Program-made: the position numbers and the translations under genes
In this document: positions 3,165-17,563 of the stretch, one piece after another
Layout of the letters: each line of letters starts with the position of its first letter
How positions within the stretch are numbered: position 1 is the stretch's first letter
The notes under the pieces: generated by a model
What the model saw: only the letters and a program-made list of their open reading frames with translations
Database searches by the model: none
What the model was told of the DNA's origin: nothing
From: a virus
IMG/VR virus record: IMGVR_UViG_3300047469_000404
Coordinates: 1-35,349 of that record
Length of the DNA stretch: 35,349 bases
Strand: one strand, 5' to 3'

Positions 3165-3904
3165 TGGGTAAGTCGGCTCAACTTCTCTTAATGGGTGACA
3201 AGGCGTCTCGCCAGTGCATGTGGGAAGCGGTTCGAGACAATCGGAGCGGCTTTACGTCGCGCCAGATTGCCAAGCAATCACGTCAAGCAGGTGTGAGTGT
3301 CGACAGCTACATACGCGCATTGAACAAAGCAGCCCTGATTGAACTGGTTGATGATGCGGGAAAGTTTGTCGATCATCGATGGCGCCTCATTCGAGATGAG
3401 GGCGCGGAATATCCGAGGGTTGCGAGCAACGGGAAGCGCTCGCGGCGTGGGCTGGGCTTGGAAAACCTTTGGCGTACTTTGCGCATTATGGGCGAAATGA
3501 CCGCAGCCGACGCTGCGGAAATGGCAAGTACCGGCGATGTAAAAGTCACCCAGACATATGCATTAAATTACTTCGAAGTGCTTGTTCGAGCGGGCTACCT
3601 AGTGGCGAGCGAATACGACTCCCAACGTGCTCAGACTTACAGGCTTGTTCCTGGGAGGGGGGCAGGGCCACGGTATCCGATAGTTCAACGAACTGAAGCA
3701 GTGCAGGTGTTCGATCCGAATTTGAATAAGGTCGTCTACTCGAATGTCGCTTCGGGTGGTGTGTCTGATGCGTCTGCCCCTGATAACAATATGCAGCAAG
3801 AGAACATTCGGCTTCGAGCTCTTCTGGCCGAGTTCATCGAAGTTGTGCCGAATCTCCCATCGACAAGTCTTCTTCAGCGGGCACAGTTGGAGTTGGCCGA
3901 ATGA
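3164..3904 (+). CDS. Early protein with winged-helix-like repeats, function unknown
   Basis: 246-residue protein. Residues about 15-65 read as a winged helix (SRQIAKQSRQAGVSVDSYIR, then strands ending in DHRWRL). A second similar unit lies at about 105-165 (TAADAAEMASTGDVKVTQTY through SEYDSQRAQTYRLVPG). The C-terminus (about 215-246) is a leucine-rich, possibly coiled helix. Two winged-helix-like halves suggest DNA binding, but no known family was recognised with confidence. It follows the B ATPase with a TAATG overlap and a GGAGGG ribosome site at 3151-3156, and overlaps the next gene by ATGA, so it belongs to the transposition operon. Confidence 0.7.
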   Translation: MGKSAQLLLMGDKASRQCMWEAVRDNRSGFTSRQIAKQSRQAGVSVDSYIRALNKAALIELVDDAGKFVDHRWRLIRDEGAEYPRVASNGKRSRRGLGLENLWRTLRIMGEMTAADAAEMASTGDVKVTQTYALNYFEVLVRAGYLVASEYDSQRAQTYRLVPGRGAGPRYPIVQRTEAVQVFDPNLNKVVYSNVASGGVSDASAPDNNMQQENIRLRALLAEFIEVVPNLPSTSLLQRAQLELAE

Positions 3905-4275
3905 CACAGGTCGATATTTCCGCTTGGGGTAACGAGCCCCCTCTCTTCGTCCGGCTGCTCGCAGCTGAAGTTGGCGCCAGTAACCGTACTCGTGCTGCTG
4001 AACGTGTTGGTATCAGCCGTACTGCAGTAAGCCTGGTCCTGGTGAACAAATACAGCAGCCCAAGTACGGCGGGTGTGGAACGTCGTGTCCTCGACTCGTT
4101 GGGGCGTATTGAGTGCGTCGCCGTTGGCGAAACCCTGACTATCGAGCAGTGCCAAAGCTACCGCGAAAAGCCAGCTCCGACGCATAACCCTCGAGCAATG
4201 CAGCATTGGCGCGCATGCCTGCACTGCCCAATGAATCCGAACTGCGCGGGAGGTGCCAATGCAACCGTCCACTGA
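3901..4275 (+). CDS. Small HTH protein with C-terminal cysteine cluster
   Basis: 124-residue protein. Residues about 18-62 form a helix-turn-helix (NRTRAAERVGISRTAVSLVL), a Cro/LacI-like recognition pattern. The C-terminus holds a cysteine cluster (C-x2-C-x5-C at about residues 109-118, CLHCPMNPNC) that could bind a metal ion. A sequence-specific DNA-binding role is likely; whether it regulates the early operon or acts in transposition cannot be told. The ATG overlaps the stop of the previous gene (ATGA), which points to coupled translation. Confidence 0.75.
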   Translation: MTQVDISAWGNEPPLFVRLLAAEVGASNRTRAAERVGISRTAVSLVLVNKYSSPSTAGVERRVLDSLGRIECVAVGETLTIEQCQSYREKPAPTHNPRAMQHWRACLHCPMNPNCAGGANATVH

Positions 4276-4441
4276 CAGTGTTCGTTCGCAAGTGCCCGTA
4301 GTGCAAATCTACATCTGCGGTCGCAGCTTAATCCGCCTCTACATAGACGACAAATGCGTCGGGTTTTCTGAGAGCTACAAGTTCGCTCAGATCCGTGCGG
4401 AAGAGTTGGCAAAGGCCGGGCGTCAACAGGAGGTGCATTGA
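4259..4441 (+). CDS. Hypothetical small early protein
   Basis: 60-residue protein of unknown function, mixed beta/alpha in appearance (VVQIYICGRSLIRLYIDD, then a C-terminal helix AQIRAEELAKAG). The ATG at 4259 is chosen over an in-frame GTG at 4253 because GGGAGG (4248-4253) is then spaced correctly. It overlaps the preceding gene by 17 bases and ends in TGATG with the next, so it is embedded in a translationally coupled run. No family recognised. Confidence 0.6.
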   Translation: MQPSTDSVRSQVPVVQIYICGRSLIRLYIDDKCVGFSESYKFAQIRAEELAKAGRQQEVH

Positions 4442-4932
4442 TGCGTACTCGATGCCCCAATTGTGGGACGACGCTCAGCTTGGATGCCTTGATTGCACAT
4501 GACGGCGCCCGCGATGCGCTTGGCGTGGCGTTCAAATTATCCGGCCAGCTTGGCAACGCGTTGATTCGCTATGTCGGTTTGTTCCGACCAGAAACCCGAG
4601 AGCTGACCATGGATCGGGTGGGCAAGATCCTCAATGAGTTATTGCCGGATCTGCAAGCCCAACGCATTGAGCGCAATGGTGCTGTGTTCAATGCGCCTGC
4701 TGCTTGTTGGGTTTGGGCCGTCGAACAAGCTGTCTCCGCTCGTGATGCGGGGCGACTGGTGACGCCGCTAAAAGGGCATGGCTGGCTGTACCAGGTCATG
4801 ACTCAGTGGCAAGGCGAAACAACGGCGGTGCTACTACCTGAAGCCACTCCTCCGAAGCAAGCCATGGTCAGCCGGCCAAGCCAGACAACGGCTGCTCTGG
4901 TGGCACTACAGGGGCGGCTGAATGGAGGGTGA
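4441..4932 (+). CDS. Early protein with N-terminal CxxC knuckle
   Basis: 163-residue protein starting with a half zinc ribbon (RCPNCGTTLSLDAL, C5 and C8); no second CxxC pair is visible, so metal binding would need dimerisation or other ligands. Residues about 20-105 are predominantly helical and contain 'FRPETRELTMDRVGKILNEL', a pattern that also appears in phage replication-accessory proteins. The tail (about 130-163) is polar and may be flexible. The ATG at 4441 is preferred to a TTG at 4438 because AGGAGG (4428-4433) is better spaced. Function unknown; a role in DNA metabolism is a guess from the context. Confidence 0.65.
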   Translation: MRTRCPNCGTTLSLDALIAHDGARDALGVAFKLSGQLGNALIRYVGLFRPETRELTMDRVGKILNELLPDLQAQRIERNGAVFNAPAACWVWAVEQAVSARDAGRLVTPLKGHGWLYQVMTQWQGETTAVLLPEATPPKQAMVSRPSQTTAALVALQGRLNGG

Positions 4933-5314
4933 CTGGCTACAGCGTGAGGTGATTGCGGGGCTCAGCGGGCTTGTCGCCCTGCGCCTCGACGGTGCGCCTG
5001 CTGCCGACGCTATCACTCACACACTCGATATATGGCTGGTGGCCTTGAAAAAGGCACAGCGCTGGAACGAAGAGACAGATGGAGCGCGGGTTAAAGCAGC
5101 TTTCGAAACGTTGTTCGCGAGCTGCGAGCGTTGGCCAGCACCGGCAATGTTGATTCGGGTGATACCGGTTCGGCAAAGCCAGCAGGCATTACCTAACCCC
5201 GCATTAACTGAAGAACAACGCGCCAATGGGCGTCGCCGGATCGGGGAGATTCTCGGCGCCTTGAAGTACAGCAATACCAAACATGAAACGAACATGGAGC
5301 AGGACAAAGAATGA
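4922..5314 (+). CDS. Hypothetical early protein
   Basis: 130-residue, mostly helical protein with no recognised domain. A run resembling 'LVALRLDGAPAADAITHTLD' leads into a helical core with conserved-looking tryptophans (WNEETDGARV, CERWPAPAMLI). The phrase 'WPAPAMLI' followed by 'LTEEQRANGRRRIGEIL' resembles small replication-module proteins of phages, but this is only an impression. It overlaps the upstream gene by 11 bases and the downstream DUF3164 gene by ATGA. Confidence 0.6.
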   Translation: MEGDWLQREVIAGLSGLVALRLDGAPAADAITHTLDIWLVALKKAQRWNEETDGARVKAAFETLFASCERWPAPAMLIRVIPVRQSQQALPNPALTEEQRANGRRRIGEILGALKYSNTKHETNMEQDKE

Positions 5315-5952
5315 ATATTCCAGAAGGATTTCGCCAAGATGCAAAGGGCCACTTGGTCCCGGTAAGCATGATCAAGCCGATTGATCTGGCACGCGACGAA
5401 CTGGTTATTGAGCTTGTCGACAAGGCCAAGGCCATTTCTCAGACGCTGGGCGCTTTTAAGGCATTGGCCTTTGGTGACATCAAAGCGTTCGTCGAAATGT
5501 CTGCGGAGCAGTACAAGGCCACCATCGGCGGTAAGAAAGGCAACGTCACTCTGTTGTCGTTCGATGGCCGTTACAAGATCGTTCATGCAGTACAAGACTC
5601 GATCAAGTTCGATGAGCGGCTACAGGCTGCCCGTGCATTGATTGATGAGTGTGCAGCTGAGTGGACGCAGGATGCTCGAAGTGAAGTTCGAGTGCTGGTT
5701 AATGAGGCATTTCGGACGGACAAGGTAGGCGAAATCAGCACCGGGCGTGTGCTTGCGCTTCGTCGGCTGGAAATTTCGGACTCGCGATGGCAGCGCGCAA
5801 TGCAGGCCATCAGCGACGCTGTGCAGGTTGTTGGCTCCAAGAGTTACGTTCGGATCTATGAGCGTATCGGTGATAGCGACCAATACGCCTCCATCCCGTT
5901 GGATATCGCCAGTGCCTTCGTCGCGGCCTCTGCGCCGTCGACGCTGCACTGA
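5311..5952 (+). CDS. DUF3164 family early protein
   Basis: 213-residue member of the DUF3164 family, common in the early region of Mu-like phages. The family signature is seen at the N-terminus (IPEGFRQDAKGHLVPVSMI), followed by a helical region and the central 'VTLLSFDGRYKIVHAVQDSI'. The molecular role is unknown; some databases label relatives as transporters, which the soluble sequence here does not support. The ATG overlaps the previous stop by ATGA. A 59-bp gap follows it, the first real gap since the B gene's leader. Confidence 0.85.
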   Translation: MNIPEGFRQDAKGHLVPVSMIKPIDLARDELVIELVDKAKAISQTLGAFKALAFGDIKAFVEMSAEQYKATIGGKKGNVTLLSFDGRYKIVHAVQDSIKFDERLQAARALIDECAAEWTQDARSEVRVLVNEAFRTDKVGEISTGRVLALRRLEISDSRWQRAMQAISDAVQVVGSKSYVRIYERIGDSDQYASIPLDIASAFVAASAPSTLH

Positions 5953-6011
5953 TCTGAATCCGTCACTGACCAACCCTCATTCAGCACTGAACGTACGAGA
6001 GCGAACAAATT

Positions 6012-6248
6012 ATGGCCAAGTTCCAAATCACCATCGAAGACAGCGCCGATGGCGTCTCTATCCAAGTCGACAACCAAACTCAACTGGGTGGTAGCAAAGC
6101 GGGACGCTTAGCGAGCGCGCTTATGACTGGCGTGCCAATGCTACTTACCCGGATTCCTGTGGACTTTGTAGTTGGGCATGCGGCGTGTGATTGCGAGATC
6201 TGCCAAGCCATGCACGAAAAGCAGATGACCAAGCCGACCATCCATTAA
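6012..6248 (+). CDS. Small cysteine-containing early protein
   Basis: 78-residue protein. The N-terminal half is beta-like (FQITIEDSADGVSIQVDN); the C-terminal half holds H-x2-C-x-C-x2-C (HAACDCEIC), a possible metal-binding cluster. Function unknown. The upstream gap (5953-6011) has no clear ribosome site beyond GAGCGAA and no obvious terminator. Its TAA (6246-6248) lies immediately before the first hammerhead ribozyme, so after ribozyme cleavage its mRNA would end in a hairpin with a 2',3'-cyclic phosphate. Confidence 0.65.
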   Translation: MAKFQITIEDSADGVSIQVDNQTQLGGSKAGRLASALMTGVPMLLTRIPVDFVVGHAACDCEICQAMHEKQMTKPTIH

Positions 6249-6311
6249 TGCGAAACCACCTCGGGTAACTGGGGTGGTCTATCCGGCGCGGTGGCCGGGT
6301 ACTGATGAGCA
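6249..6311 (+). ncRNA. Type II hammerhead ribozyme, copy A
   Basis: All invariant hammerhead parts are present in type II order (open stem II). Upstream core GAAA is at 6252-6255. Stem III pairs A6255-C6262 with G6271-U6278 (8 bp including the conserved A15.1-U16.1; loop of 8). The cleavage triplet GUC is 6277-6279, with predicted cut between 6279 and 6280. Stem I pairs 6280-6287 with 6294-6301 (8 bp; loop of 6). Downstream core CUGAUGA is 6302-6308. Stem II is only 3 bp (U6249-C6251 with G6309-A6311) and keeps the conserved G10.1-C11.1 pair. The element begins one base after the stop codon of the upstream gene. Strongly supported by pattern; activity untested. Confidence 0.9.
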
Positions 6312-6323
6312 GCCGAGGACGAG

Positions 6324-6740
6324 ATGGAACAAGCAGATTGGGATGCATTGAAGGAGCAGATGGCAAGCCCGTGGGGCTACATGAAGCTCATGTGTGATGG
6401 GTTTGAGATCAGCCTTTCGCAAGAGACTGACCGCACCAAAAAGAGTTGGTCGACGGTGGTCTACATTGATGGATTTTTGAAGGGCGCTTGGTTGGATTGC
6501 GACCACAAAAACGGTGAACCCGTGCATGAGGAAACTCGCCGTTTTTATCGCAAGGTGACTCGTGCCCTTCATACCAAAAAGGATATCGAGGTCTATCGGA
6601 AAATCTACGGCAAACGCAGGGCCGCCGAGATGGAGTTGGTCAAGTTTTTCACGTACGACTGGTGCTGGAAAAGCTTCAACTCCCTGAAAAAACATCTGCT
6701 ATCTAACAACACCAGCGTCACGCGCATTGCCGAAAATTGA
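6324..6740 (+). CDS. Basic protein of unknown function between two hammerhead ribozymes
   Basis: 138-residue protein rich in lysine, arginine and aromatic residues. Visible segments include 'SPWGYMKLMCDGFEISLSQE', a beta-like stretch (KKSWSTVVYIDGFLKGAWLD), and a strongly basic helical part (ETRRFYRKVTRALHTKKDIE, VYRKIYGKRRAAEMELVKFF) ending in 'WCWKSFNSLKKHL'. No family recognised. The charge is compatible with nucleic-acid binding, which is inference only. The start is ATG 6324 with GAGGA at 6315-6319. It is the only gene between the two ribozymes, so cleavage would leave it as a monocistronic RNA with a 44-nt leader and a 29-nt trailer. Confidence 0.75.
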   Translation: MEQADWDALKEQMASPWGYMKLMCDGFEISLSQETDRTKKSWSTVVYIDGFLKGAWLDCDHKNGEPVHEETRRFYRKVTRALHTKKDIEVYRKIYGKRRAAEMELVKFFTYDWCWKSFNSLKKHLLSNNTSVTRIAEN

Positions 6741-6800
6741 GCGAAACCGCTCCGGCAATCGGGGTGGTCTGCCCGGCGTAGTGGCCGGGTACTGACGAGC
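6741..6800 (+). ncRNA. Type II hammerhead ribozyme, copy B
   Basis: Second copy, about 80% alike to copy A. GAAA core is 6743-6746. Stem III pairs 6746-6753 with 6761-6768 (8 bp, loop of 7). GUC is 6767-6769, with cut predicted between 6769 and 6770. Stem I pairs 6770-6777 with 6784-6791 (8 bp, loop of 6). CUGACGA is 6792-6798. Stem II has only two adjacent pairs (G6741-C6800 and C6742-G6799), but 6736-6740 could pair with 6807-6811 across a 6-nt bulge, which would include the upstream stop and part of the next start codon. Stem differences from copy A all keep pairing through G-U exchanges, while both core strands are intact. Confidence 0.87.
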
Positions 6801-6809
6801 AGCTAATCA

Positions 6810-7088
6810 ATGACACAGGAAACCCCGGTCGAACGGAAACGCCGGCTTGCTCGCGAGCGGCAACAGCGCATGCGTGACGCTCGCACAGCAAAGCTTAAGG
6901 CGATGGGCGCATCGAAATTTAAGATGGAGATGTATTCGGGAACAAGTGCTGCCTTGGAGACCGTTCGGACGGCTGGGGAATTCGATGATGCGGCCGAGGC
7001 ACTGACGCTACTAATTCACGCGGCGGCCAAGCTGGCGAAGCGTGACCCGATGGCGTTCAGGAAGTTGGTCGAAGTGAGGAGAAAATGA
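6810..7088 (+). CDS. Small basic early protein, function unknown
   Basis: 92-residue protein with a highly basic N-terminal helix (ERKRRLARERQQRMRDAR) followed by a compact helical part (FDDAAEALTLLIHAAAKLAK). This design fits a small nucleic-acid-binding protein, but no known family was recognised. The ATG lies 19 bases after the end of ribozyme B's stem II strand and lacks a convincing Shine-Dalgarno sequence, so its translation may depend on coupling or on the ribozyme's state. It overlaps gemA by ATGA. Confidence 0.7.
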   Translation: MTQETPVERKRRLARERQQRMRDARTAKLKAMGASKFKMEMYSGTSAALETVRTAGEFDDAAEALTLLIHAAAKLAKRDPMAFRKLVEVRRK

Positions 7089-7498
7089 ATCGGCGCAATC
7101 TTGATCTATCAAAGATCCATATCGCCAAGAAGGATTTGGCACTGGATGAGGACACCTACCGGGCAATGCTCCAGAGAGTTGCTGGAGTGAGTTCGGCAAA
7201 GGATTTATCACCACTGAAAACCTCGGCCGTACTCACGGAGCTGGTGCGCTTGGGGTGGAAGCCAAAGAAAGCTAAGGTAGGTAGAGCAGCACCAAAAGTT
7301 GCACCTGATCGGGAAAAGTTGGTTAGCAAAATCGAAGCCTTCCTGGCCGAAGCTGGGCGTGAGTGGGCTTATGCCGATGGCATGGCTCTGCGAATGTTCA
7401 AGGTCGAACGGGTGGAGTGGCTGGATGCTCGTCAACTCGGGAGCATGGTGTCGGCGCTCACCTACGATGCCAAACGGAATGGGAGGCCGATACAGTGA
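7085..7498 (+). CDS. gemA: GemA/gp16 family protein
   Basis: 137-residue member of the GemA (Mu gp16, DUF1018) family. The family signature is clear at the N-terminus: 'IHIAKKDLALDEDTYRAML', then 'RVAGVSSAKDLSP' and 'LVRLGWKPKK'. The C-terminal half (about 75-137) is a second helical domain. Mu GemA modulates host gene expression and DNA topology (genes for gyrase-type functions); that role is carried over from Mu and is not visible here. Ribosome site GAGGAG at 7075-7080; start overlaps the previous stop (ATGA), and the end overlaps the GTG of the activator gene. Confidence 0.9.
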   Translation: MNRRNLDLSKIHIAKKDLALDEDTYRAMLQRVAGVSSAKDLSPLKTSAVLTELVRLGWKPKKAKVGRAAPKVAPDREKLVSKIEAFLAEAGREWAYADGMALRMFKVERVEWLDARQLGSMVSALTYDAKRNGRPIQ

Positions 7499-7938
7499 GC
7501 AATGACCAGTTATTTGCTGATGACAGTGACAAGCTTGATCCCAAGAAAGTCTTGGCCCATATGGAAGATCCAATCGTCTCCGCTCGATGGGAGGGGAATT
7601 TAAAGGAGATGGTGGAGCTCGCTGAATTTGAGCTGTTGAAAAGGCTTCCAGAAAAGCCCGAGGCTGTACCCGAAATCGCCCGTGCAGTCGTGTTCTCGAT
7701 CTGCTCCACCATGGGTGGCTCAGTGATTTATCTGCCGCGTGGAGAATCGCTCAAGCGGGCTATGCGAGACGCTGAAATCTACCGTGAATGGTTGGATGCC
7801 GGAGCACAACCTCATGAGCTGGTGCGCAAGTATCAGCTTTCCTCAGCCATCATCTACGGCATCATTAAGCGTCAACGGGGATTGCATAGACAGAACGGTC
7901 CTGACTTGTTTGGCTTTGAGCAGGAAACCATCCACTGA
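7495..7938 (+). CDS. mor: Mor/C-family transcription activator
   Basis: 147-residue activator of the Mor/C family, which binds promoters without good -35 boxes and recruits RNA polymerase to middle or late genes. The dimerisation region (about 55-95) contains 'GGSVIYLPRGESL' (74-86). A helix-turn-helix at about 105-128 (AQPHELVRKYQLSSAIIYGI) forms the DNA-binding end. Mu Mor is 129 residues. The GTG at 7495 is chosen because GGGAGG (7481-7486) lies 8 bases upstream and it overlaps the gemA stop; an upstream extension to 7363 would overlap gemA widely. No second Mor/C gene is seen, so this one activator may do the work of both Mor and C. Confidence 0.9.
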   Translation: MSNDQLFADDSDKLDPKKVLAHMEDPIVSARWEGNLKEMVELAEFELLKRLPEKPEAVPEIARAVVFSICSTMGGSVIYLPRGESLKRAMRDAEIYREWLDAGAQPHELVRKYQLSSAIIYGIIKRQRGLHRQNGPDLFGFEQETIH

Positions 7939-7941
7939 TAG

Positions 7942-7958
7942 CATTGCACCCTGCAATG
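7942..7958. promoter_or_regulatory. 7-bp perfect inverted repeat after the activator gene
   Basis: CATTGCA and TGCAATG are separated by CCC. The repeat sits between the activator stop codon and the intrinsic terminator. It could be an extra transcript-end hairpin or a binding site for a dimeric regulator such as the Mor-type protein. No experiment or homology separates these options. Confidence 0.4.
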
Positions 7959-7968
7959 TAAGTCCACC

Positions 7969-7994
7969 AAACCCCCGCCCGTGCGGGGGTTTTT
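7969..7994 (+). terminator. Intrinsic terminator ending the early operon
   Basis: A 10-bp stem (7969-7978 with 7983-7992, core CCCCCGC/GCGGGGG) with a 4-base loop and a run of five T at 7990-7994. It separates the early genes from the lysis and head genes, so transcription of the latter needs a new promoter in 7995-8072, presumably driven by the Mor-type activator. Confidence 0.9.
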
Positions 7995-8038
7995 CTTGTC
8001 TGAATAAGAAACTCGATCACTTCCTCTAAGGCGCGAAC

Positions 8039-8068
8039 CTAGCCCGGTACTTCTTACCGACGGGTTAG
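8039..8068 (+). promoter_or_regulatory. Imperfect dyad/hairpin just upstream of the first late gene
   Basis: The arms CTAGCCCGGTA (8039-8049) and TACCGACGGGTTAG (8055-8068) can form 11 pairs with a 3-base bulge and a 5-base loop. It ends four bases before the ATG at 8073, where a ribosome site would be expected, so it may be an activator site, an RNA leader structure limiting translation, or both. No good sigma-70 -10/-35 pair was found in 7995-8038. Confidence 0.4.
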
Positions 8069-8072
8069 CGCC

Positions 8073-8390
8073 ATGCCAGCTCCAGTTCCTACATCGCCGC
8101 GTGCATTCGCTGCTCAGATCCTTGAGGGCGTGTCGCCCTGCGAGTCGATTCTTGATCGCTGCCCAGTTGAATGGCGTGACCTGGTCATGGATCACGTTCG
8201 CGTGGCTCAGGACAGGCGAGACATGAACGTCGCCCGTCAGCAGAAGTTTCGGCCCCTGGCCAAAGCACCGAGCCCACAAACCACCACCTACCAGGAGCAG
8301 CACCTGGGGCGCGGCAATCCTGTAGTTGCAGCTGCGCACCTGGCCGCTGTCCGAGCCTCCCTCAACTCCAATCGAGTAACCACGCAATGA
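8073..8390 (+). CDS. Hypothetical protein at the start of the late operon
   Basis: 105-residue protein without a recognised family. The N-terminal half is helical (FAAQILEGVSPCESILDR, EWRDLVMDHVRVAQ); the C-terminal half is proline- and glutamine-rich and then helical (NPVVAAAHLAAVRASL). It occupies the place of Mu gene C but shows no Mor/C signature. It lacks a clear Shine-Dalgarno sequence and is preceded by a stable dyad. The following holin-like gene overlaps its stop by ATGA. Confidence 0.6.
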   Translation: MPAPVPTSPRAFAAQILEGVSPCESILDRCPVEWRDLVMDHVRVAQDRRDMNVARQQKFRPLAKAPSPQTTTYQEQHLGRGNPVVAAAHLAAVRASLNSNRVTTQ

Positions 8391-9315: not shown

Positions 9316-9941
9316 AGGAAACGCTTAAGTGGTTTGCGCCGCTGCTGATCGCGGTGGTTTTGATCTCCGCCGCTCTCCTGTTCATCGGGAACACCCGCCA
9401 GGCCGGTTATGACGAAGGGTACATAGCTGGGAAGGCCGAAGGCGCGGAGGCCTATCAAAAGCTTAAAGACGAGGTCCAGGGCGAACGCCTGGAGCTGGCA
9501 AGCGACGCTCTGGCGAAAGCTCAGGCCGCTGCCAAATCGCTCCAGGAGCAAACCAAGCGTGGCGATGACTTGGCCACCCGGCTCACCACCACCAAAGACG
9601 AGTTTCGCCGAAACACCGACAAGCTTACTGGGGAGATAAACCGTGTCACGACTCTATATCGCCGCACCTTGGATGCGCTGCCTGAGCCTCTGCCTACTGC
9701 TGTGTTCACTACCGGCTTTGTCCGCGTGTGGAACCAAAGCCTTAACCCAACCGCAGTGCGTGCCAGACAGCCCGCCAGCGGATCTGCTGCGACCTCCGGA
9801 GACCCCGGAGCCGCTGACGACCTCGACAGCGGAATAACTCCGGCTGTCCTTCTGAACAACCAAGTGCGCAACAGCGAGAAGCACGCCTCTTGCCGCGCTC
9901 AGCTCACAAGCCTGATCGAGTATTACACCCATGGACGTTGA
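9312..9941 (+). CDS. Rz-like inner-membrane spanin
   Basis: 209-residue protein with an N-terminal membrane anchor (about 9-27, PLLIAVVLISAALLFIG) and a long periplasmic coiled coil (about 40-115, for example LASDALAKAQAAAKSLQEQT). This is the layout of the Rz i-spanin, which joins an o-spanin lipoprotein to fuse inner and outer membranes in the last step of lysis. ATG 9312 is preferred to 9306 because the AAAGGG site (9298-9303) is better spaced and it overlaps the lysin stop. A lipoprotein gene is nested in another frame of its second half. Confidence 0.8.
   Translation: MKETLKWFAPLLIAVVLISAALLFIGNTRQAGYDEGYIAGKAEGAEAYQKLKDEVQGERLELASDALAKAQAAAKSLQEQTKRGDDLATRLTTTKDEFRRNTDKLTGEINRVTTLYRRTLDALPEPLPTAVFTTGFVRVWNQSLNPTAVRARQPASGSAATSGDPGAADDLDSGITPAVLLNNQVRNSEKHASCRAQLTSLIEYYTHGR
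9643..9837 (+). CDS. Rz1-like o-spanin lipoprotein nested inside the i-spanin gene
   Basis: 64-residue, proline-rich lipoprotein encoded in another frame of the i-spanin gene. It has a signal sequence with a lipobox LPALSAC (lipidated cysteine at residue 29), then a short proline-rich tail with PPADLLRPPETPEP. Size, lipobox, proline content and nesting all match Rz1-type outer-membrane spanins. The GTG start at 9643 is preceded by GGGGAG at 9630-9635, a good ribosome site located inside the host gene, which supports genuine translation. Confidence 0.85.
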   Translation: MSRLYIAAPWMRCLSLCLLLCSLPALSACGTKALTQPQCVPDSPPADLLRPPETPEPLTTSTAE

Positions 9942-10146
9942 TGACCGCGCCACCGAAGTTGAGGAAGCGCATCGAGAAGCCGCTTTAGCGGCGCATTTGG
10001 CACAAGCAAAACAACCCGCACGACCATCCTCTTTCCACTGTGAGGATTGCGGGGTCGCAATTCCAGAGCCGCGCCGCGTTGCTGTACCAGGTGTGTCGCT
10101 TTGCGTGGATTGCAAATCCATTCATGAGCACCTGGGGCGCAAATGA
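9931..10146 (+). CDS. TraR/DksA-type C4 zinc finger protein
   Basis: 71-residue protein with an N-terminal helix (ATEVEEAHREAALAAHLAQA) and a C4 zinc finger: C-x2-C, 17 residues, C-x2-C (HCEDCGVAIP ... SLCVDCKSIHE). This is the TraR/DksA short form, whose members bind the RNA polymerase secondary channel and change promoter choice; phage versions are common between lysis and packaging genes. The start overlaps the i-spanin end by 11 bases and its end overlaps the next ATG. The polymerase target is inferred from the family. Confidence 0.85.
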   Translation: MDVDDRATEVEEAHREAALAAHLAQAKQPARPSSFHCEDCGVAIPEPRRVAVPGVSLCVDCKSIHEHLGRK

Positions 10147-10451
10147 ACATGATCGAAATGCCGGTGTGGCAACTGATTGCCTCAGCCGTGACCTTGTTGG
10201 GGATGTTCGCTGGCCTGGTCAAGCTGTTGCTCTCGCAGATGGAAGGCCGTCTGGATGAGCGTTTCGAACTCGTCGCAAAGGACTCCGAGCGCCTGCGCCA
10301 GGTCGAACTCGGCTTGGAGCGACTCCGAGGTGAAATGCCGCTGCACTACGTGCGTCGGGAAGACTACGTGCGCAACCAAACAGTCATCGAGGCCAAGCTC
10401 GACGCCCTGGCCCTAAAGTTCGAAAACGTTCAGCTCAAAGGAAAATTGTAA
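10143..10451 (+). CDS. Membrane-anchored coiled-coil protein (Mu gp25-like position)
   Basis: 102-residue protein with one membrane segment (about 9-29, LIASAVTLLGMFAGLVKLLL) and a charged helical tail predicted to be coiled coil (MEGRLDERFELVAKDSERLR to 102). It resembles the short DUF2730-type proteins found at the Mu gp25 position, but the function is unknown. ATGA-type overlap with the zinc finger gene and TAATG-type overlap with the next gene show it is in the late operon. Confidence 0.7.
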   Translation: MNMIEMPVWQLIASAVTLLGMFAGLVKLLLSQMEGRLDERFELVAKDSERLRQVELGLERLRGEMPLHYVRREDYVRNQTVIEAKLDALALKFENVQLKGKL

Positions 10452-10762
10452 TGAACATCGATCACGCGAAGGTCCGCCGCGAAACGCTGCGTTGGTACAT
10501 CCTCCTCACGCTCAACACGTCCCGTCCGGTTGATCCGAATGAAGCGGTGGTGCTCTCGACGATCCAGGGTATCTATCCCGACGCCACGCAACTTGAGCTG
10601 CGCCGTGAGTTGGACTATCTGAAAGATCGTTCTCTGGCGACGCTGAAGAAACAGCCGAGCGGTGTGTGGATCTGCGGCCTGACCCACTATGGCGTGGACA
10701 TTGCCGAGTACACCATCGACTGCAATCCCGGCATTGCCCGGCCTGAAAAGTACTGGTCCTGA
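10451..10762 (+). CDS. Mu gp26-like small protein
   Basis: 103-residue protein with a winged-helix appearance: helix 'RETLRWYILLTLNTSRP', then 'LRRELDYLKDRSLATLKKQP' and the wing-like 'GVWICGLTHYGVDIAEYTID'. Position between the gp25-like protein and the small terminase matches Mu gp26, whose role is not established. A TAATG overlap joins it to the previous gene; three bases separate it from the small terminase gene. Confidence 0.7.
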   Translation: MNIDHAKVRRETLRWYILLTLNTSRPVDPNEAVVLSTIQGIYPDATQLELRRELDYLKDRSLATLKKQPSGVWICGLTHYGVDIAEYTIDCNPGIARPEKYWS

Positions 10763-10765
10763 CTT

Positions 10766-11278
10766 ATGCCTCCGCGTAGCAAAGTGGCCGCGCTGCCGGC
10801 CCAGGTGAAAACATGGCTCGATCACTCTTTGGTCGAGTCGAACTTTTCTGGCTATGAATCTCTTTCCGCTGAGTTGGAGAGCCGTGGCTACTCCATTGGC
10901 AAAAGCGCGCTTCACCGTTATGGGTCGGAATTTGAGGTAAAGCTGGCCTCGCTCAAGCTGGCTTCGGAGCAGGCAAAGGCCGTAGTCCAGGCGGCGCCCG
11001 ATGACGAAGGCGCGGTCAACGAAGCGCTCATGCGTCTGGTGCAGGAACACCTGTTCAAGTTGTTGATGGCCGATGATGGAAAGATGGATCTGCCCAAGGT
11101 GGCCAAGGCTGTTGCCGAGCTTGGCCGTGCATCTGTTGTCCAGAAAAAATGGCAAGCCGAGTTCCGGGACAAGGCCGAAGCGGCGGCCAGCAAGGTAGAG
11201 AAAATCGCGAAGAAAGGCGGCTTGAATCAAGCGACCGTCGATGAAATCCGGCGCGAGATTCTCGGGATGGCATCGTGA
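10766..11278 (+). CDS. Terminase small subunit (Mu gp27, DUF3486)
   Basis: 170-residue protein of the DUF3486 family. It starts with a basic DNA-binding region (PPRSKVAALPAQVKTWLDHS, then YESLSAELESRGYSIGKSAL), followed by long helices (about 60-145). It is the DNA-recognition subunit of the packaging motor, expected to select the pac site near the phage left end. It lies immediately upstream of the large terminase, whose GTG overlaps its stop. Length agrees with Mu gp27 relatives. Confidence 0.88.
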   Translation: MPPRSKVAALPAQVKTWLDHSLVESNFSGYESLSAELESRGYSIGKSALHRYGSEFEVKLASLKLASEQAKAVVQAAPDDEGAVNEALMRLVQEHLFKLLMADDGKMDLPKVAKAVAELGRASVVQKKWQAEFRDKAEAAASKVEKIAKKGGLNQATVDEIRREILGMAS

Positions 11279-12828
11279 GTTTTCCCCTAGTCCTGGACAG
11301 CACTGCGACTCTTTTAGCGCCGGCCGTGCTGCTGGACTATCAGAAAGAGTGGATCGGCATTCGTGCTCCGCTCAAGGTCGGCGAAAAATCCAGGCGGATC
11401 GGTCTCACCTGGGCGGAAGCTGCCGACAATGTGTTGGTGGCTGCCGCCGAAAAGCCAGCTGGTGGTCAGACGGTTTATTACTTGGGCTACAACCAGGACA
11501 TGACCGTGGAGTACATCCAGGCCTGCGCTATGTGGGCACGGGCTTACAACTATGCCGCCGAGGAAATAGAAGAAGGCATCTGGCCGGACAGTGACCCGGA
11601 CAAGCACATTAAGACCTACACCATCGCGTTTCCCAGCGGACACCGAATCGTTGCACTCACCAGTCGCCCATCTAACTTGCGTGGCCGTCAGGGTGTGGTC
11701 GTGATCGACGAGGCTGCGTTTCACCAGGATCTAGCCGAACTGCTGAAAGCCGCATTGGCTCTGCTCATCTGGGGCGGCGAAGTCCATGTCATTAGTACAC
11801 ACGACGGCACCGAGAACGCTTTTAACGAACTGATTAACGACATCCGAGCAGGCAAGCGCAAGGGGGCGCTGTTTCGCTGCCCTTTTCGTGAAGCTGTCGA
11901 GGACGGACTTTATCGGCGGGTATGTCTACGCAAGGGCATCGAATACGATCCCGAAGAGGAAGCCGAATGGGTCCAGGATGTCTACGACTTCTACGGCGAT
12001 GCAGCTGACGAGGAGCTGGACTGCATACCTTCTCAAGGTGGTGGTGCGTTTCTCAGCCTGGCCTTGGTCGAGCAGCGTAGTAACCGCGAAGTGCCAGTGT
12101 TACGCCTGGCATACCCGCAAGGGTATGAAACCACCGAAGAACACTTGCGCCTGGCTGAGTCGTTGGAGTGGTGCGAAGAGCATTTAAAGCCATTACTTGC
12201 AGCTATCCCACTGGACGTTCAAAGCTTCTATGGGATGGACTTCGGGCGCTCCGGCGACCTCTCTGTGATCTGGCCCTTGGTCAAAGAACAGAACCTACGC
12301 AAACGCACTCCCTTTGTGCTTGAGCTGCGCAACGTGCCGTTCAAGCAACAGCTTCAGATCAAGTTCTACATTCTCGATCGTTTGCCCAACTTCCATAAAG
12401 GTGCAGACGATGCCAGAGGCAACGGCTCTCAGCTGTCGGAAGACACTGCCATTAAGTACGGCTTCAATCGCATTGAACGCGTGATGCTGACCGAGGGTTG
12501 GTATCGGGACAACATGCCGCTGTTTAAAGCCGCGTTAGAAGACGACACCTTCTATGACATTCCGGCCGATAAAGATGTGGTGAGCGATGTGCGCGCCTTT
12601 CGCATGGTCAAGGGTGTGGCTCGTATTCCGGAAAAGCGCACCAACGAAAAAGGCGAAAAGGCCGGACCCAAGCGGCATGGTGACGCCGGTATCGCGGCCG
12701 TCCTTGCTGACTATGCCTCGCGTCAAGAAATTGAGATTTTCGAATATCACCGCGTCCCGCCCGCTGCTCAGCATGACCGCACGGTCAAGAGTGGTGCCGG
12801 ATGGCGCTCCAAGAAAGGCATCTGGTAA
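11275..12828 (+). CDS. Terminase large subunit (Mu gp28)
   Basis: 517-residue packaging motor. The ATPase half has an adenine/arginine region (KSRRIGLTWAEA, 38-49) and Walker B with catalytic glutamate (VVVIDEAAF, 141-149), then a coupling-type motif (VISTHDG). The nuclease half has the first acidic residue of the RNase H fold at D322 (YGMDFGRSGDLS) and a late acidic cluster near 'KRHGDAGIAAVLA'. It drives DNA into the prohead and cuts headfuls, so host DNA flanking the prophage is packaged as in Mu. The GTG start overlaps the small terminase stop. Length is typical of gp28 (about 550). Confidence 0.93.
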   Translation: MSFPLVLDSTATLLAPAVLLDYQKEWIGIRAPLKVGEKSRRIGLTWAEAADNVLVAAAEKPAGGQTVYYLGYNQDMTVEYIQACAMWARAYNYAAEEIEEGIWPDSDPDKHIKTYTIAFPSGHRIVALTSRPSNLRGRQGVVVIDEAAFHQDLAELLKAALALLIWGGEVHVISTHDGTENAFNELINDIRAGKRKGALFRCPFREAVEDGLYRRVCLRKGIEYDPEEEAEWVQDVYDFYGDAADEELDCIPSQGGGAFLSLALVEQRSNREVPVLRLAYPQGYETTEEHLRLAESLEWCEEHLKPLLAAIPLDVQSFYGMDFGRSGDLSVIWPLVKEQNLRKRTPFVLELRNVPFKQQLQIKFYILDRLPNFHKGADDARGNGSQLSEDTAIKYGFNRIERVMLTEGWYRDNMPLFKAALEDDTFYDIPADKDVVSDVRAFRMVKGVARIPEKRTNEKGEKAGPKRHGDAGIAAVLADYASRQEIEIFEYHRVPPAAQHDRTVKSGAGWRSKKGIW

Positions 12829-14372
12829 TGGCTCAGTCACGCATTGTCGACCAGCACGGTCGGCCAATCCAATTCGACCAGCTCACTGCTGAGCTTGCAG
12901 CTCCCAAAGTGACCGGAGTACGGCAAGTTTGGCACTCGTCAGTTGCCAGCGGCCTGACACCCGAGCGCCTCGCGAGAATCCTGCAGGACGCCGCCGAGGG
13001 CACAGCGCTGGACTATTTGACTTTGGCCGAGGAGATGGAGGAGCGCGATCTGCATTACGCCTCCGTCTTGGGCACGCGCAAGTTGGCGGTGGCGGGTCTT
13101 AATATTCGAGTGGAAGCAGCGTCCGACGAAACCGAGGACATCCGTCGGGCAGATGCCGTGCGTGAGGTGGTCTCTTCGGCCGAATTTGGCGAGCTGCAGA
13201 GCGAAGCTGTCGATGCCTTGGGCAAAGGCTATTCCGTAAGTGAGATCATGTGGGATCGAAGCGGTAAGACATGGATGCCCGACCGGTTCGAGACTCGGGA
13301 TCAGCGCTTCTTCCAGTTTGACCGCGAGACCGGTCGCGAGCTTCGGCTGCTCGATGAGGCCGATGTGCTCAATGGCATTGCGCTGGCCCCTTACAAGTTC
13401 ATCGTCCATTTACCCCGCATTCGTGCCGGGCTTCCAATCCGTGGCGGTTTGGCCAGGCTGGCGGCCGTCGCCTACATGTGCAAGGCATGGACCTGGAAGG
13501 ACTGGATGGGCTTCGCGGATATCTATGGCATTCCAATGCGCGTAGGCCGGTATGGTCCGAACGCAAGCAAGGATGACATTGGCGTCCTGCTTTCGGCTGT
13601 GGCCAACCTGGGCAGCGACGCTGCAGCGGTAATCCCGGACAGCATGAAGATCGATTTCCAGACGGCTGCAAACGTGGCCGGTGCCGGAGATTTCTTTAAA
13701 GGCTTGGCCGAATGGTGGGACAAGCAGGTCAGCAAGGCAGTCGTTGGCCAGACCATGAGTGCCGACGATGGTGCCAGCCTGGCGCAAGCCAAAGTCCACA
13801 ACGAAGTGCGGCTGGATCTGCTGGAAGCTGATGCCAAGGCGCTCAGCAACACCTTCAATCGGCAATTCGTTCGTCCGTTCTGTGATCTGAATTTTGCACC
13901 TGGTCGTCCTTACCCGAGGCTGATCGTCGATGTTCCGCAACCAGAAAATATTCAGCTACTTATAACGGCGCTGAAGGAGCTGGTGCCGCTTGGGCTTGAG
14001 GTAGAGCAGTCGGTCATCCTGGACAAGCTCAATTTGCCGTCCCCAGCTGAGGGCGCAAAGATCTTGGGCAAGGCTGCAGCGCCGACGCTTGCGACCGCGG
14101 CAAACCGAGAGCAGCCGACGAAGGTGGTCGATATAAAGGACGTGGTGGATAACCAGGTGAAGACTTTGGAGGCTGCAGCTGCAGCTCCTCTCGGCGATAT
14201 GGTTGACGCTATCCGCGAATTGCTTGATTCGGTCAGCAGCCTGGAAGAGTTTCGTGACCGCCTAATCGAGGTCTATCCCGATATGAATGCGGGTCAGCTC
14301 GCCGACGCGATGGCTGATGGGCTAGCTGCTGCCAGCTTGGCCGGCCGCTATGACGTGTTGAGGGGGCTCTAA
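12828..14372 (+). CDS. Portal protein (Mu gp29, DUF935)
   Basis: 514-residue DUF935 family portal protein forming the DNA gate of the capsid. The N-terminus (SRIVDQHGRPIQFDQLTAEL) and the central 'YMCKAWTWKDWMGFADIYGI' are typical of the family. The ATG at 12828 shares one base with the terminase stop (TAATG); an earlier in-frame start would overlap terminase. It ends in another TAATG overlap with the gpF gene, so terminase, portal and gpF are translationally linked. Confidence 0.93.
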   Translation: MAQSRIVDQHGRPIQFDQLTAELAAPKVTGVRQVWHSSVASGLTPERLARILQDAAEGTALDYLTLAEEMEERDLHYASVLGTRKLAVAGLNIRVEAASDETEDIRRADAVREVVSSAEFGELQSEAVDALGKGYSVSEIMWDRSGKTWMPDRFETRDQRFFQFDRETGRELRLLDEADVLNGIALAPYKFIVHLPRIRAGLPIRGGLARLAAVAYMCKAWTWKDWMGFADIYGIPMRVGRYGPNASKDDIGVLLSAVANLGSDAAAVIPDSMKIDFQTAANVAGAGDFFKGLAEWWDKQVSKAVVGQTMSADDGASLAQAKVHNEVRLDLLEADAKALSNTFNRQFVRPFCDLNFAPGRPYPRLIVDVPQPENIQLLITALKELVPLGLEVEQSVILDKLNLPSPAEGAKILGKAAAPTLATAANREQPTKVVDIKDVVDNQVKTLEAAAAAPLGDMVDAIRELLDSVSSLEEFRDRLIEVYPDMNAGQLADAMADGLAAASLAGRYDVLRGL

Positions 14373-15655
14373 TGGCGGTGTCCCACGGATCTCTGCCATT
14401 CCAGGAGCAGATCGACTATTTCAAAGGCAAGACCAATATCCCGACCCGCGCTTGGACGGATGTCTACAACGTTGAGCATGACTGGGCGTTCGTGGTCGCG
14501 GGCACCACCAAGCAGGCCCTGCTTGCGGATATGCGCGGTGCTGTCGAAAAGGCCATCACTAGTGGCCTCACCCTGGAGCAGTTCCGCGCCGGGTTTGACC
14601 AGGTCGTAAATAAGCACGGCTGGGAATACAACGGAGGCCGTGGCTGGCGTACCCGCGTGATCTACGAGACCAACCTGCGCCAGTCCTATAATGCCGGTCG
14701 TGAAACTCAGATGGCCGATCCCGAGCTACGCAAGCGCCGGCCATATGGGCTTTACCGCCACGGCGACAGCGCTTACCCTCGGCCACAGCACCTAGCGTGG
14801 AACGGCACGGTGTTGCCCCTGGACGATCCGTGGTGGAGCACTCACAGCCCCCAGAACGGCTGGGGCTGTAAGTGCAAGAAGTTCATGGTGGGCCAGCGTG
14901 ACCTCGACCGCCAAGGCCTGAAGGTAGGTCCGGCACCAGAGATTGAATATGAGGACCGCACCATTGGGGTGAACAGCCCGAATGGACCTCGCACGGTGCG
15001 GGTGCCAAAGGGTATTGATCCGGGCTTTGAGTTCGCACCTGGTCAATCGCGGTTGGCCACGGCCGTGCCACCGTTGCGCGCTTATGATCCGCTGCCTGAA
15101 CCAGGTGCGCGGTCGAGCAGCGTTCAGGGTGCAGGCTTGCCAAACAAGCGGCCACTTAGTGCTCTGCCTCCAGCGCGGGAGGTGTCTGCAGACAAGCTCT
15201 TGCCGGAAGGACTTCCGGATCAGACCTACGTTGAGCGCTTCCTGGCAGAGTTCGGCGCGTCCGACGCGGCACCGGTCTTGTTCAAGGATGTGACCGGCGA
15301 TGCCGTAGTGGTCGGTCGTGAGTTGTTCACTAATGCCAAAACCGGCGCTTTGAAGATCAAGAAACGTGGCCATGCCCGTGAGCTGCTGCTGCTCGCTGAG
15401 GCAATCAAAGACCCGGATGAGGTGTGGGTGCGGTTGGAATGGCTGTATGCCAAGAACAAGGCGGTCGTGCGGCGCCGTTATATCTCGCGCTACCAGATCG
15501 ATGGCGAGCCAGTTCCGGCGCTGTCAGTGTTTGAGGTTGGAGATGATGGTTGGGATGGTGTTACGACGTTCTCGCCGGATGCCAATAACCCAGAGTACCT
15601 GGAGCAACTCAGGATCGGGGTACGGCTGTATCGTCGGTCAACAATCGACGAGTAA
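14372..15655 (+). CDS. gpF-like minor head protein with C-terminal PBECR-type domain
   Basis: 427-residue fusion. Residues about 1-230 match the Mu gpF/SPP1 gp7 minor head family: 'VIYETNLRQSYNAGRETQM', and 'NGWGCKCKKFMV' with W164, C166 and C168. A linker rich in proline follows (about 225-275). Residues about 280-427 look like the PBECR2 nuclease-type domain (phage Barnase-EndoU-ColicinE5/D-RelE class): 'GHARELLLLAEAIKDPDEVW' and 'LRIGVRLYRRS'. Such C-terminal domains ride in phage heads and may be delivered into the host; activity is not shown. Head role sure, the C-terminal domain fairly sure. Confidence 0.88.
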   Translation: MAVSHGSLPFQEQIDYFKGKTNIPTRAWTDVYNVEHDWAFVVAGTTKQALLADMRGAVEKAITSGLTLEQFRAGFDQVVNKHGWEYNGGRGWRTRVIYETNLRQSYNAGRETQMADPELRKRRPYGLYRHGDSAYPRPQHLAWNGTVLPLDDPWWSTHSPQNGWGCKCKKFMVGQRDLDRQGLKVGPAPEIEYEDRTIGVNSPNGPRTVRVPKGIDPGFEFAPGQSRLATAVPPLRAYDPLPEPGARSSSVQGAGLPNKRPLSALPPAREVSADKLLPEGLPDQTYVERFLAEFGASDAAPVLFKDVTGDAVVVGRELFTNAKTGALKIKKRGHARELLLLAEAIKDPDEVWVRLEWLYAKNKAVVRRRYISRYQIDGEPVPALSVFEVGDDGWDGVTTFSPDANNPEYLEQLRIGVRLYRRSTIDE

Positions 15656-15685
15656 TAAAAAACCACGCGCCGCCACACGTGGTTT
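15654..15685 (-). terminator. Intrinsic terminator on the minus strand
   Basis: An 8-bp stem (AAACCACG 15660-15667 with CGTGGTTT 15678-15685) with a 10-base loop. Read on the minus strand it is followed by a T-rich run (TTTTTTATTA counting the stem end). On the plus strand no T-run follows beyond the stem. It could stop transcripts of the minus-strand gene at 16334-17563 after they have run antisense through gpG. Its place just after the gpF stop also makes it a candidate 3' hairpin for the plus-strand message. Confidence 0.55.
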
Positions 15686-15761
15686 CGCCCTGAGTGTAGG
15701 CCTGGAGGTCCTGGCGGGGACTGCTCACTCAATGGGCGTTCATTGATAGTAGGAGATGCAC

Positions 15762-16328
15762 ATGGCAGGCGCAATGCTCAATGTCGAAGTCGATGACAGT
15801 CGATCTGGTGCGGCGTTGGCCGAATTGGCAGAGCGATTGGAGAATCTTCGTGTACCGCTCAAGGACATCGCGGAGTACCTGCATCAATCCACGGACGAAC
15901 GCTTTCGAAAGCAGGTATCTCCCGACGGTACTCCATGGGCACCATTGGCTGCATCCACCATTGCACGGAAGAAGTCGAGCCAGATCCTGCGGCAGGATGG
16001 CTTTCTCCAAGACACCATGCGACACCGGATCAGCGGTAATGGGTTGGAATTTGGTACGGATCGGGTCTACGGCGGTATCCACCAGAACGGCGGCAAGATC
16101 GAGCAAGGCGCTCGTTCGCAGCAGGTTTACTTCAAACACAAGAATGGTGAGGTCGGAAATCGGTTTGTCAAAAAGAGGCAGTCCAACTTTGCCCAATGGG
16201 TGACCCGAGGTGCGACATCCACAGAGATGCCCGCTCGACCATATCTTGGACTGTCATCCGAGGATGACAATGAGATCTTCGCCATCGTTTCTGAGTACCT
16301 ATCCGAGCCATTCCAAGTCGGCGAGTGA
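15762..16328 (+). CDS. G: Virion morphogenesis protein (Mu gpG)
   Basis: 188-residue member of the phage virion morphogenesis family (Mu gpG), needed in Mu for joining heads and tails. Family features are 'DERFRKQVSPDGTPWAPLAA', 'LRQDGFLQDTMRHRI', 'YGGIHQNGGKI' and 'MPARPYLGLSSEDDNEI'. The ATG at 15762 is preferred to 15756 because AGGAG at 15751-15755 then has a normal spacing. A 106-bp gap with a hairpin separates it from gpF. It ends five bases before the stop of the convergent minus-strand gene, with no terminator between them. Confidence 0.92.
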   Translation: MAGAMLNVEVDDSRSGAALAELAERLENLRVPLKDIAEYLHQSTDERFRKQVSPDGTPWAPLAASTIARKKSSQILRQDGFLQDTMRHRISGNGLEFGTDRVYGGIHQNGGKIEQGARSQQVYFKHKNGEVGNRFVKKRQSNFAQWVTRGATSTEMPARPYLGLSSEDDNEIFAIVSEYLSEPFQVGE

Positions 16329-16333
16329 TTGCG

Positions 16334-17563
16334 CTATTGGCGAATTAAAAGGTAGCCTTTCGCGAATTCCTCTGGCCCACCCAGCAGTGTCTTGTTTGAT
16401 CGCTTTTCAGATTCTGCCGTAACCTCGAAAAAGCGTTCTGCAGGATTAAAGCCTCCGACTATCCGACTGATGAAGTAGGTAAACCCCTCTTGTACCACAT
16501 GGATAGAAGGAGAATCGGTGGCTGGACGCTCGTGTAGGGTGTGACCTGCATAGATGGGAGGAGGGTCAAACGGAATGTCTCTGGATGGTTCCCGGCGAGC
16601 ACTGCCGTGCTGCTGCTTTTTCAGAATGATGGATACAGCACGATCCAGGCAGTAGCGGGCGTTAGAGTCCGTAGCGTTACTTGCCCCGAAATCCGCGTCA
16701 TAGGTAACCGACCAACCTTGATTTACGCCTGTGCGGAAAACACTAGGGGTTAATCGTTGTAAATTGTGAAGTTCCACGGTGTGGATTCCCAGTTCCATTG
16801 CTTGAAAGCGCCAGTTCTGGTGATCTATCTGCACATAGTCCGTCGGCACTTTCACATGCTGTTCAATCCACTTGGCGTTACGAGTCCACTCCGGGGCTCT
16901 CCATCCACCACGTAAAGCAGATGAAAGTAAATTTTCCGGCTTTATGCCACCGTAGTCACGCCAGCCATAGATGCTGTACTCCGCCTCAAACTCGACAAAG
17001 ATTGCCTTACGCGTTTCTATCAAAGCGTCGAGGTAGCGCCGCTCTTTGATAGCCTGCTCAGCGGCTTTGAGAAGAGTTTTGGACTCGGCATCCTGGAGCA
17101 GGTTCGCAATGAATAAATCGCGGAGTGTATGACCTAGGACCGCTTGCGTCATCGAGGAAATGGCCTCCTGCGCAGCGGCGTAATATGTTCTCACCATCGC
17201 TGGCTCAGCAAGCTGTGCGTAGTGCTTGACCAAGACTCTTTGCTTATTAAGCGCCTTAAGGGTTCCTGAACGGGGCACGGCAACACCGGCAGCCTTTAAT
17301 TCCCCAAGGAGTTCATCGAAGCTCTTCCGTTCGAGGTTTTTTTCGTCATCGATGCCTCGTTCGAGGAGCAGAGCGTACAGGACGGCTTCTAGAGCATCTT
17401 GAAGAACTATTAAGCCCGTGGAGGCCAGGTATCTATCCTCCGTTGAGCACAATGGGTCAGCCTGTTCAAGCAGTGCTCGCGCAACTATAAGGGAATGCAG
17501 TGTTGATTCGCGCATATGACGCCTAATGTTGAGTTGAAGGTCCATGAGCCGAGAACGCATCAT
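16334..17563 (-). CDS. Reverse-strand cargo protein with HEPN-like N-terminal domain
   Basis: 409-residue protein encoded against the late operon. Residues about 15-140 are all-helical and include 'TLKALNKQRVLVKHYAQL', with an Rx4H motif (R109, H114) as in HEPN RNases; the residue after R is V rather than the usual N/D/H. A second helical segment (155-198, AIKERRYLDALIETRKAIFV) also looks HEPN-like. The C-terminal half (200-409) is mixed and unrecognised. Orientation, lack of a Mu counterpart and position between G and I mark it as an accessory gene. No clear ribosome site precedes the tandem ATGs at 17563 and 17560. A defence or abortive-infection role is a hypothesis. Confidence 0.75.
   Translation of the reverse strand: MMRSRLMDLQLNIRRHMRESTLHSLIVARALLEQADPLCSTEDRYLASTGLIVLQDALEAVLYALLLERGIDDEKNLERKSFDELLGELKAAGVAVPRSGTLKALNKQRVLVKHYAQLAEPAMVRTYYAAAQEAISSMTQAVLGHTLRDLFIANLLQDAESKTLLKAAEQAIKERRYLDALIETRKAIFVEFEAEYSIYGWRDYGGIKPENLLSSALRGGWRAPEWTRNAKWIEQHVKVPTDYVQIDHQNWRFQAMELGIHTVELHNLQRLTPSVFRTGVNQGWSVTYDADFGASNATDSNARYCLDRAVSIILKKQQHGSARREPSRDIPFDPPPIYAGHTLHERPATDSPSIHVVQEGFTYFISRIVGGFNPAERFFEVTAESEKRSNKTLLGGPEEFAKGYLLIRQ

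Follow-up and report, generated by a model that had tools for sequence, protein, structure and literature searches.

Clustered hammerhead ribozymes, type II included, have been described flanking single prophage genes or short gene blocks, where they occur as pairs and triplets, and arrays were named for Clostridium scindens, Azorhizobium, and Agrobacterium (ardA) (Perreault et al. 2011, PMC3088659). According to that report, in vitro assays were run on clustered hammerheads of prophages, and cleavage of one array was seen in E. coli; 4 of 18 hammerheads conforming to the consensus were inactive in vitro. The same work describes a pseudoknot between loop I and the tail of type II hammerheads, and such pseudoknots speed hammerhead cleavage. 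Work cited in PMC10085705 found an enrichment of both hammerheads and twisters in the vicinity of Mu-like phage genes and of other ribozymes. The role of bacterial and phage hammerheads is presented as an open question in the text of three papers (PMC3088659, PMC6155905, PMC10085705).

We examined the window (the whole 35,349-nt stretch of viral DNA analyzed here), for which a first-pass annotation, made from the letters alone, had proposed two type II hammerheads and had named the Rfam covariance models as the check. The search with RF02276 (Hammerhead_II) gave two end-to-end matches on the + strand, at 6248–6318 (71.3 bits, E 4e-13) and at 6739–6808 (63.6 bits, E 4e-11), both above the curated cut-off of 37 bits, and the proposal was thus borne out. 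No other Rfam family scored above its own cut-off anywhere in the 35,349-nt window. The features of the region are as follows.

6012–6248, + strand: orf78, the upstream gene (weak match to phrog_3652), ending in TAA at 6246–6248
6249–6315, + strand: type II hammerhead copy 1 (RF02276, fold, covariation of structure in 90 relatives), with stem II 6250–6251/6309–6310, GAA 6252–6254, stem III 6255–6264/6269–6278, C17 6279, stem I 6280–6287/6294–6301, CUGAUGA 6302–6308, and pseudoknot CGGU 6289–6292 with GCCG 6312–6315; predicted cut 6279/6280
6280–6769, + strand: predicted excised RNA of 490 nt with a hairpin at each end (coordinates and fold)
6315–6319, + strand: Shine-Dalgarno-like GAGGA of orfA, abutting the pseudoknot strand of copy 1 (sequence)
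6324–6740, + strand: orfA, the enclosed gene, 138 aa, phrog_5671
6733–6735, no strand: scar of a deletion of about 677 bp that took out the DUF2786 gene (blastn of the window against L005, L015, and L028)
6741–6805, + strand: type II hammerhead copy 2 (RF02276, fold), with stem II 6741–6742/6799–6800, GAA 6743–6745, stem III 6746–6754/6760–6768, C17 6769, stem I 6770–6777/6784–6791, CUGACGA 6792–6798, and pseudoknot UAGU 6779–6782 with GCUA 6802–6805; predicted cut 6769/6770
6810–7088, + strand: orf92 (phrog_4093), the first gene past copy 2
7085–7498, + strand: GemA (PF06252)
7504–7938, + strand: Mor transcription activator (PF08765)
7969–7992, + strand: terminator-like hairpin past mor (consensus scan only)

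In both copies, stems I and III are closed by loops and stem II is open, with a 2-bp GC/GC helix at the ends, which is the type II arrangement. With the first bases of the GAAA boxes at 6252 and 6743, the spacing of 491 bases given by the first-pass annotation is correct, as is its stem I length of 8 bp for both copies; its 8 bp for stem III has to be replaced by 10 bp in copy 1 and 9 bp in copy 2. The core (CUGANGA, GAA, A15.1–U16.1, and UH at the cut site) is intact in both copies. Its strands had been described as unchanged, but at N7 of the CUGANGA strand, a position without constraint, copy 1 has U and copy 2 has C; no other core base differs. The stem differences are indeed G-U exchanges that keep pairing. 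Missing from the earlier description was the 4-bp pseudoknot that both copies form between loop I and the 3' tail past stem II. Two of its four pairs are changed on both strands between the copies (C-G to U-A and G-C to A-U), and such two-strand changes are stronger evidence for the structure, at the level of sequence, than one-sided G-U exchanges.

Hammerhead cleavage leaves products that start with a 5'-OH and end with a 2',3'-cyclic phosphate. Since C17 lies at 6279 and 6769, the predicted products are an RNA ending at 6279, a 490-nt RNA spanning 6280–6769, and an RNA starting at 6770, exactly the three that had been foreseen.

Genes and ribozymes follow one another as orf78, ribozyme 1, orfA, ribozyme 2, orf92, gemA, and mor, in one + strand series. 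The series also holds a DUF3164 gene, a MuA-type transposase (PF09299 and PF02316), and a MuB-like ATPase (phrog_296), which together with GemA and Mor mark a Mu-like transposable phage. The link to Mu-like phages that the first-pass annotation had named is in print as the enrichment mentioned above, and the Mor gene, also named there, is present in the window, downstream of the pair. A consensus scan of 3800–8100 found no promoter-like site, and on the + strand the hairpin past mor was the sole terminator-like site besides a weak 5-pair match at 5130–5145; both ribozymes therefore probably lie within one transcript. The relatives that carry organism names come from Pseudomonas and Stutzerimonas genomes, which makes a host of the same family likely. 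The orfA product has no Pfam family, and its sole family assignment, phrog_5671, carries no annotated function; its AlphaFold2 model (pLDDT 76.9, pTM 0.61) gave no fold match in the PDB, the best one, with an E of 0.27 and a TM of 0.18 by query length, being too weak to interpret.

We compared the orfA loci. The gene is encoded in 29 further viral contigs and five bacterial genomes, giving 35 loci with the window. A type II hammerhead lies directly upstream of orfA in 35 of 35, while orfA protein identity falls to 53% among the relatives. A second type II hammerhead is present in 27 of the loci, window included, and was not seen in eight, one of which is a record that ends too soon to tell; no other ribozyme class was found in place of the missing copy 2 in L020, L022, L024, L031–L033, and L035. 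The core is intact in 62 of 62 Rfam-detected ribozymes of these loci, and the stem I segment is 22 nt long in all of them. Among Pseudomonadaceae genomes, 22 of 398 had a match. The arrangement of clustered prophage hammerheads, two or more of them in the same orientation around a single gene or a few genes, was found in the window, in the 27 orfA loci, and in 14 of the 398 genomes, where the same-strand pair lay within 1.2 kb.

The first-pass annotation had described the pair as bracketing one gene of the early operon. This is true in the window and too narrow in general, as the enclosed genes vary by relative: orfA alone, a DUF2786 gene alone (spacing about 745), orfA with a DUF2786/DUF7168 gene, as in many of the relatives that have a pair (spacing 1167), orfA with another gene of 104 aa (spacing 796), or an unrelated 113-aa gene. 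In the close relatives L005, L015, and L028 a DUF2786 gene stands between orfA and copy 2, and by this comparison the window has lost it through the deletion of about 677 bp. The right end of the deletion is 6 bp before copy 2, so that the junction of stop codon and ribozyme was preserved. Two relatives have a ribozyme between orfA and DUF2786 (L021 at 5420, 45.1 bits; L034 at 5419, 52.9 bits) with a CUGAGGA core strand, the one in L021 having a G-U pair in stem II; their near relatives L020 and L022 have neither DUF2786 nor a ribozyme at this place. Several relatives carry, upstream of the ribozyme slot, a 138-aa early gene like that at 4280–4696 of L004, which has a weak, sub-cut-off match to the SutA RNA-polymerase-binding domain (PF20661).

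The position of the ribozymes relative to genes follows a rule. In the window, copy 1 starts one base past the TAA of orf78 and copy 2 immediately past TGA 6738–6740, in agreement with the earlier remark that both begin after stop codons. Of 186 related hammerheads with enough flanking sequence, 153 have a frame of at least 60 codons whose stop codon ends −1 to +2 nt from their first base; at random positions within 1.5 kb this is the case in 1.7%. The next start codon is near as well, most often 8 or 13 nt past stem II. Among the matches listed, 63 pattern-found ribozymes had 3 kb of sequence downstream, and gemA or mor lay within 3.5 kb in 58 of these. A limited literature search found no paper tying stop-codon abutment to hammerheads.

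We then examined pairing in an alignment of 90 non-redundant ribozymes. The results showed that: (i) 97.2% of cells were paired, as compared with 77.9% in shuffles, (ii) two-sided changes occurred in 302 cells, as compared with 77 in shuffles, and (iii) sliding the partners by one to three columns lowered pairing to 29–48%. For the pseudoknot, 95.6% of cells were paired, and one of its pairs occurs as G-C, C-G, A-U, and U-A. Part of the 90 aligned are pattern matches listed, in which the pattern fixes the core, the GC stem II, and one tail base; pseudoknot column 48/72 is unaffected by these constraints. Because the core is forced in the pattern matches listed, these are a sample that cannot test core conservation, which the 62 Rfam-detected copies can. 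A first, looser pattern for viral contigs was set aside, as it gave mostly chance matches. By these comparative measures, the ribozyme structure is under selection.

The two copies of the window are less alike to each other (0.79) than copy 1 is to L028 (0.99) and copy 2 to L015 (0.97). In most cases a copy is nearer to its positional orthologue in another phage than to the second copy of its own genome. This indicates that the pair is inherited as two distinct sites, and concerted evolution of the copies was rejected as a rule. The exception is L017 (copies at 4930 and 6096), where stem III of copy 1 resembles that of copy 2; this is not so in its sister L018 (4929 and 6096), and the comparison suggests that copy 1 of L017 was converted by copy 2 within one genome.

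Type II hammerheads were also found in named phages and in one further viral contig.

JBD30 (L305), 5395–5466: type II hammerhead
D3112 (L306), 6440–6511: type II hammerhead
DMS3 (L307), 5951–6022: type II hammerhead
Alteromonadaceae phage B23 (L303), 2080–2144: type II hammerhead
Chromohalobacter phage YPCBV-1 (L304), 2167–2231: type II hammerhead
IMGVR_UViG_3300017605_000570 (G430; L299 = C1:8000-20000), contig 9932–17520, − strand: array of type II hammerheads, 45–72 bits, each between small genes

D3112, DMS3, and JBD30, which are widely used Pseudomonas aeruginosa transposable phages, have one element each (66.2 bits), which abuts a stop codon on its upstream side and is followed by the gene that precedes gemA. 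This is the same position as in the window, with a single copy in the genome stretches examined instead of a pair. The element is present in 120 phage records; in the records of these three phages that we examined it is not annotated as a ribozyme, and no paper on hammerheads in D3112 was found. For DMS3 and D3112, the annotated start of the gene that follows lies about 110 nt farther downstream. The early-region stretches searched of Mu and B3 held no type II hammerhead. In B23 and YPCBV-1, as in the window, a type II hammerhead fills the gap upstream of a distant orfA in the same operon; unlike the window, the stretch examined has one ribozyme in each, which lies two small genes ahead of orfA in B23 and one in YPCBV-1. 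By blastn alone, copy 1 also matched Burkholderia phage KS10, Rhodobacter phages, and Shewanella phage MuM16-1.

In the G430 array, 24 type II hammerheads lie within 7.6 kb, and for 21 the start is at −1 to +5 nt from the preceding stop codon. Genes for a terminase, a portal, and a tail sheath show that the record is from a contractile-tailed phage, not a Mu-like one. The other 59 pattern-found contigs, among the matches listed, had one to three hammerheads each when their records were searched whole, and a search for relatives of the array through its 342-aa gene returned the record itself only.

Taken together, we consider it probable that both elements are active type II hammerheads at which the early (A-B-gemA-mor) mRNA of a Mu-like phage is processed at gene boundaries. 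The identity of the ribozymes, their pseudoknot, placement, conservation, and covariation are shown by the sequences, whereas cleavage in vivo, separate mRNA stability, and gating by translation are inferred. Each ribozyme fills its intergenic gap, from 0–1 nt past a stop codon to just before the next ribosome-binding site, and the cuts at 6279/6280 and 6769/6770 would split a long transcript into mRNAs of one or a few genes. The upstream piece would close with the hairpin of stem III and a 2',3'-cyclic phosphate; the downstream piece would open with a 5'-OH and the hairpin of stem I. Exonucleases and the 5'-end-dependent RNase E should be resisted by ends of this kind, so each segment could have a lifetime of its own. 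Translation may gate the reaction: a ribosome terminating at the abutting stop should cover the 5' ribozyme strand, so that cutting would wait for gaps in translation. The possibility that cleavage unmasks the ribosome-binding site was rejected, since a fold model without the pseudoknot predicts the start regions to be no more unpaired after cleavage than before (0.67 to 0.55 and 0.56 to 0.44); a simple unmasking switch is thus not supported. Nor is processing at this place essential to the Mu lifestyle, given the eight orfA loci that show no second ribozyme and the Mu and B3 stretches without any.

A different reading is that the ribozymes are regulated switches, in which the ribosome at the abutting stop, a phage protein, or Mg2+ would control cleavage and so decide whether orfA and gemA-mor stay on one stable mRNA. 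The stop abutment in 153 of 186, which puts the 5' strand under a terminating ribosome, speaks for it, as does the GAGGA that touches the pseudoknot strand of copy 1; we nevertheless regard it as unlikely, because no aptamer-like insertion is seen, 186 of 187 unique ribozymes having a 22-nt stem I segment, and because the fold model did not raise accessibility of the ribosome-binding site upon cleavage. The ribozymes might instead be hitchhikers or decaying remnants that move with gene cassettes and bring no benefit of their own. Their location and number do track gene content (L021 and L034 as compared with L020 and L022), and copy 1 of L017 was seemingly converted from copy 2. However, intact cores in 62 of 62, compensatory changes that include the pseudoknot, and copies mostly closer to positional orthologues than to each other make this very unlikely.

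Cleavage followed by ligation, yielding a circle of the enclosed RNA or flanking mRNAs joined without orfA, is conceivable since each product pair rebuilds a hybrid type II hammerhead: the half-ribozymes are in the right order, they share the GC/GC stem II, and the pseudoknot lies wholly in the 3' half. Against this, many phages have one copy, so that a pair is not needed, and the text of Perreault et al. reports that spliced and circular array products were looked for and none detected (PMC3088659); we hold ligation to be the least probable of the readings weighed here.

If the elements are gene-boundary processing sites, as we favour, a broader claim can be made, to which we give slightly less than an even chance: type II hammerheads may be a general gene-punctuation device of phage operons, comparable to the tRNAs that punctuate mitochondrial transcripts. 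The portable unit would consist of stop codon, ribozyme, ribosome-binding site, and start codon, and the transcript would be chopped into separately stable mRNAs. If this is true, the window is a two-unit case and G430, with its 24 units in 7.6 kb, the extreme one, and in Mu-like phages the region upstream of gemA-mor is a retained slot in which such units exchange their genes. Three findings make the role of these hammerheads testable: the fixed placement rule, a slot that is conserved ahead of gemA-mor, and the occurrence of the element in the laboratory phages D3112, DMS3, and JBD30.

The first-pass annotation knew of no description of a hammerhead pair around a single open reading frame. 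In fact, the paired, flanking layout was described in 2011, and the window is a well-formed further case: as in the arrays of Perreault et al. (PMC3088659), several hammerheads flank a gene, and they are of type II with a pseudoknot between loop I and the tail. The window differs from the text of that paper in the abutment on stop codons (the phrase 'stop codon' is absent from its main text) and in its setting, the words 'Mu-like' and 'gemA' not being found there. PMC10085705, in the text concerned, gives the enrichment near Mu-like genes without a stated biological reason, whereas here the ribozymes occupy a defined slot upstream of orf92-gemA-mor in which the gene content changes. To the described systems, the present analysis adds the placement rule, the changing contents of the slot, the presence of the element in common phages, and the 24-fold array; of these, the unannotated copy in D3112, DMS3, and JBD30 and the phage with 24 hammerheads in a row look new.
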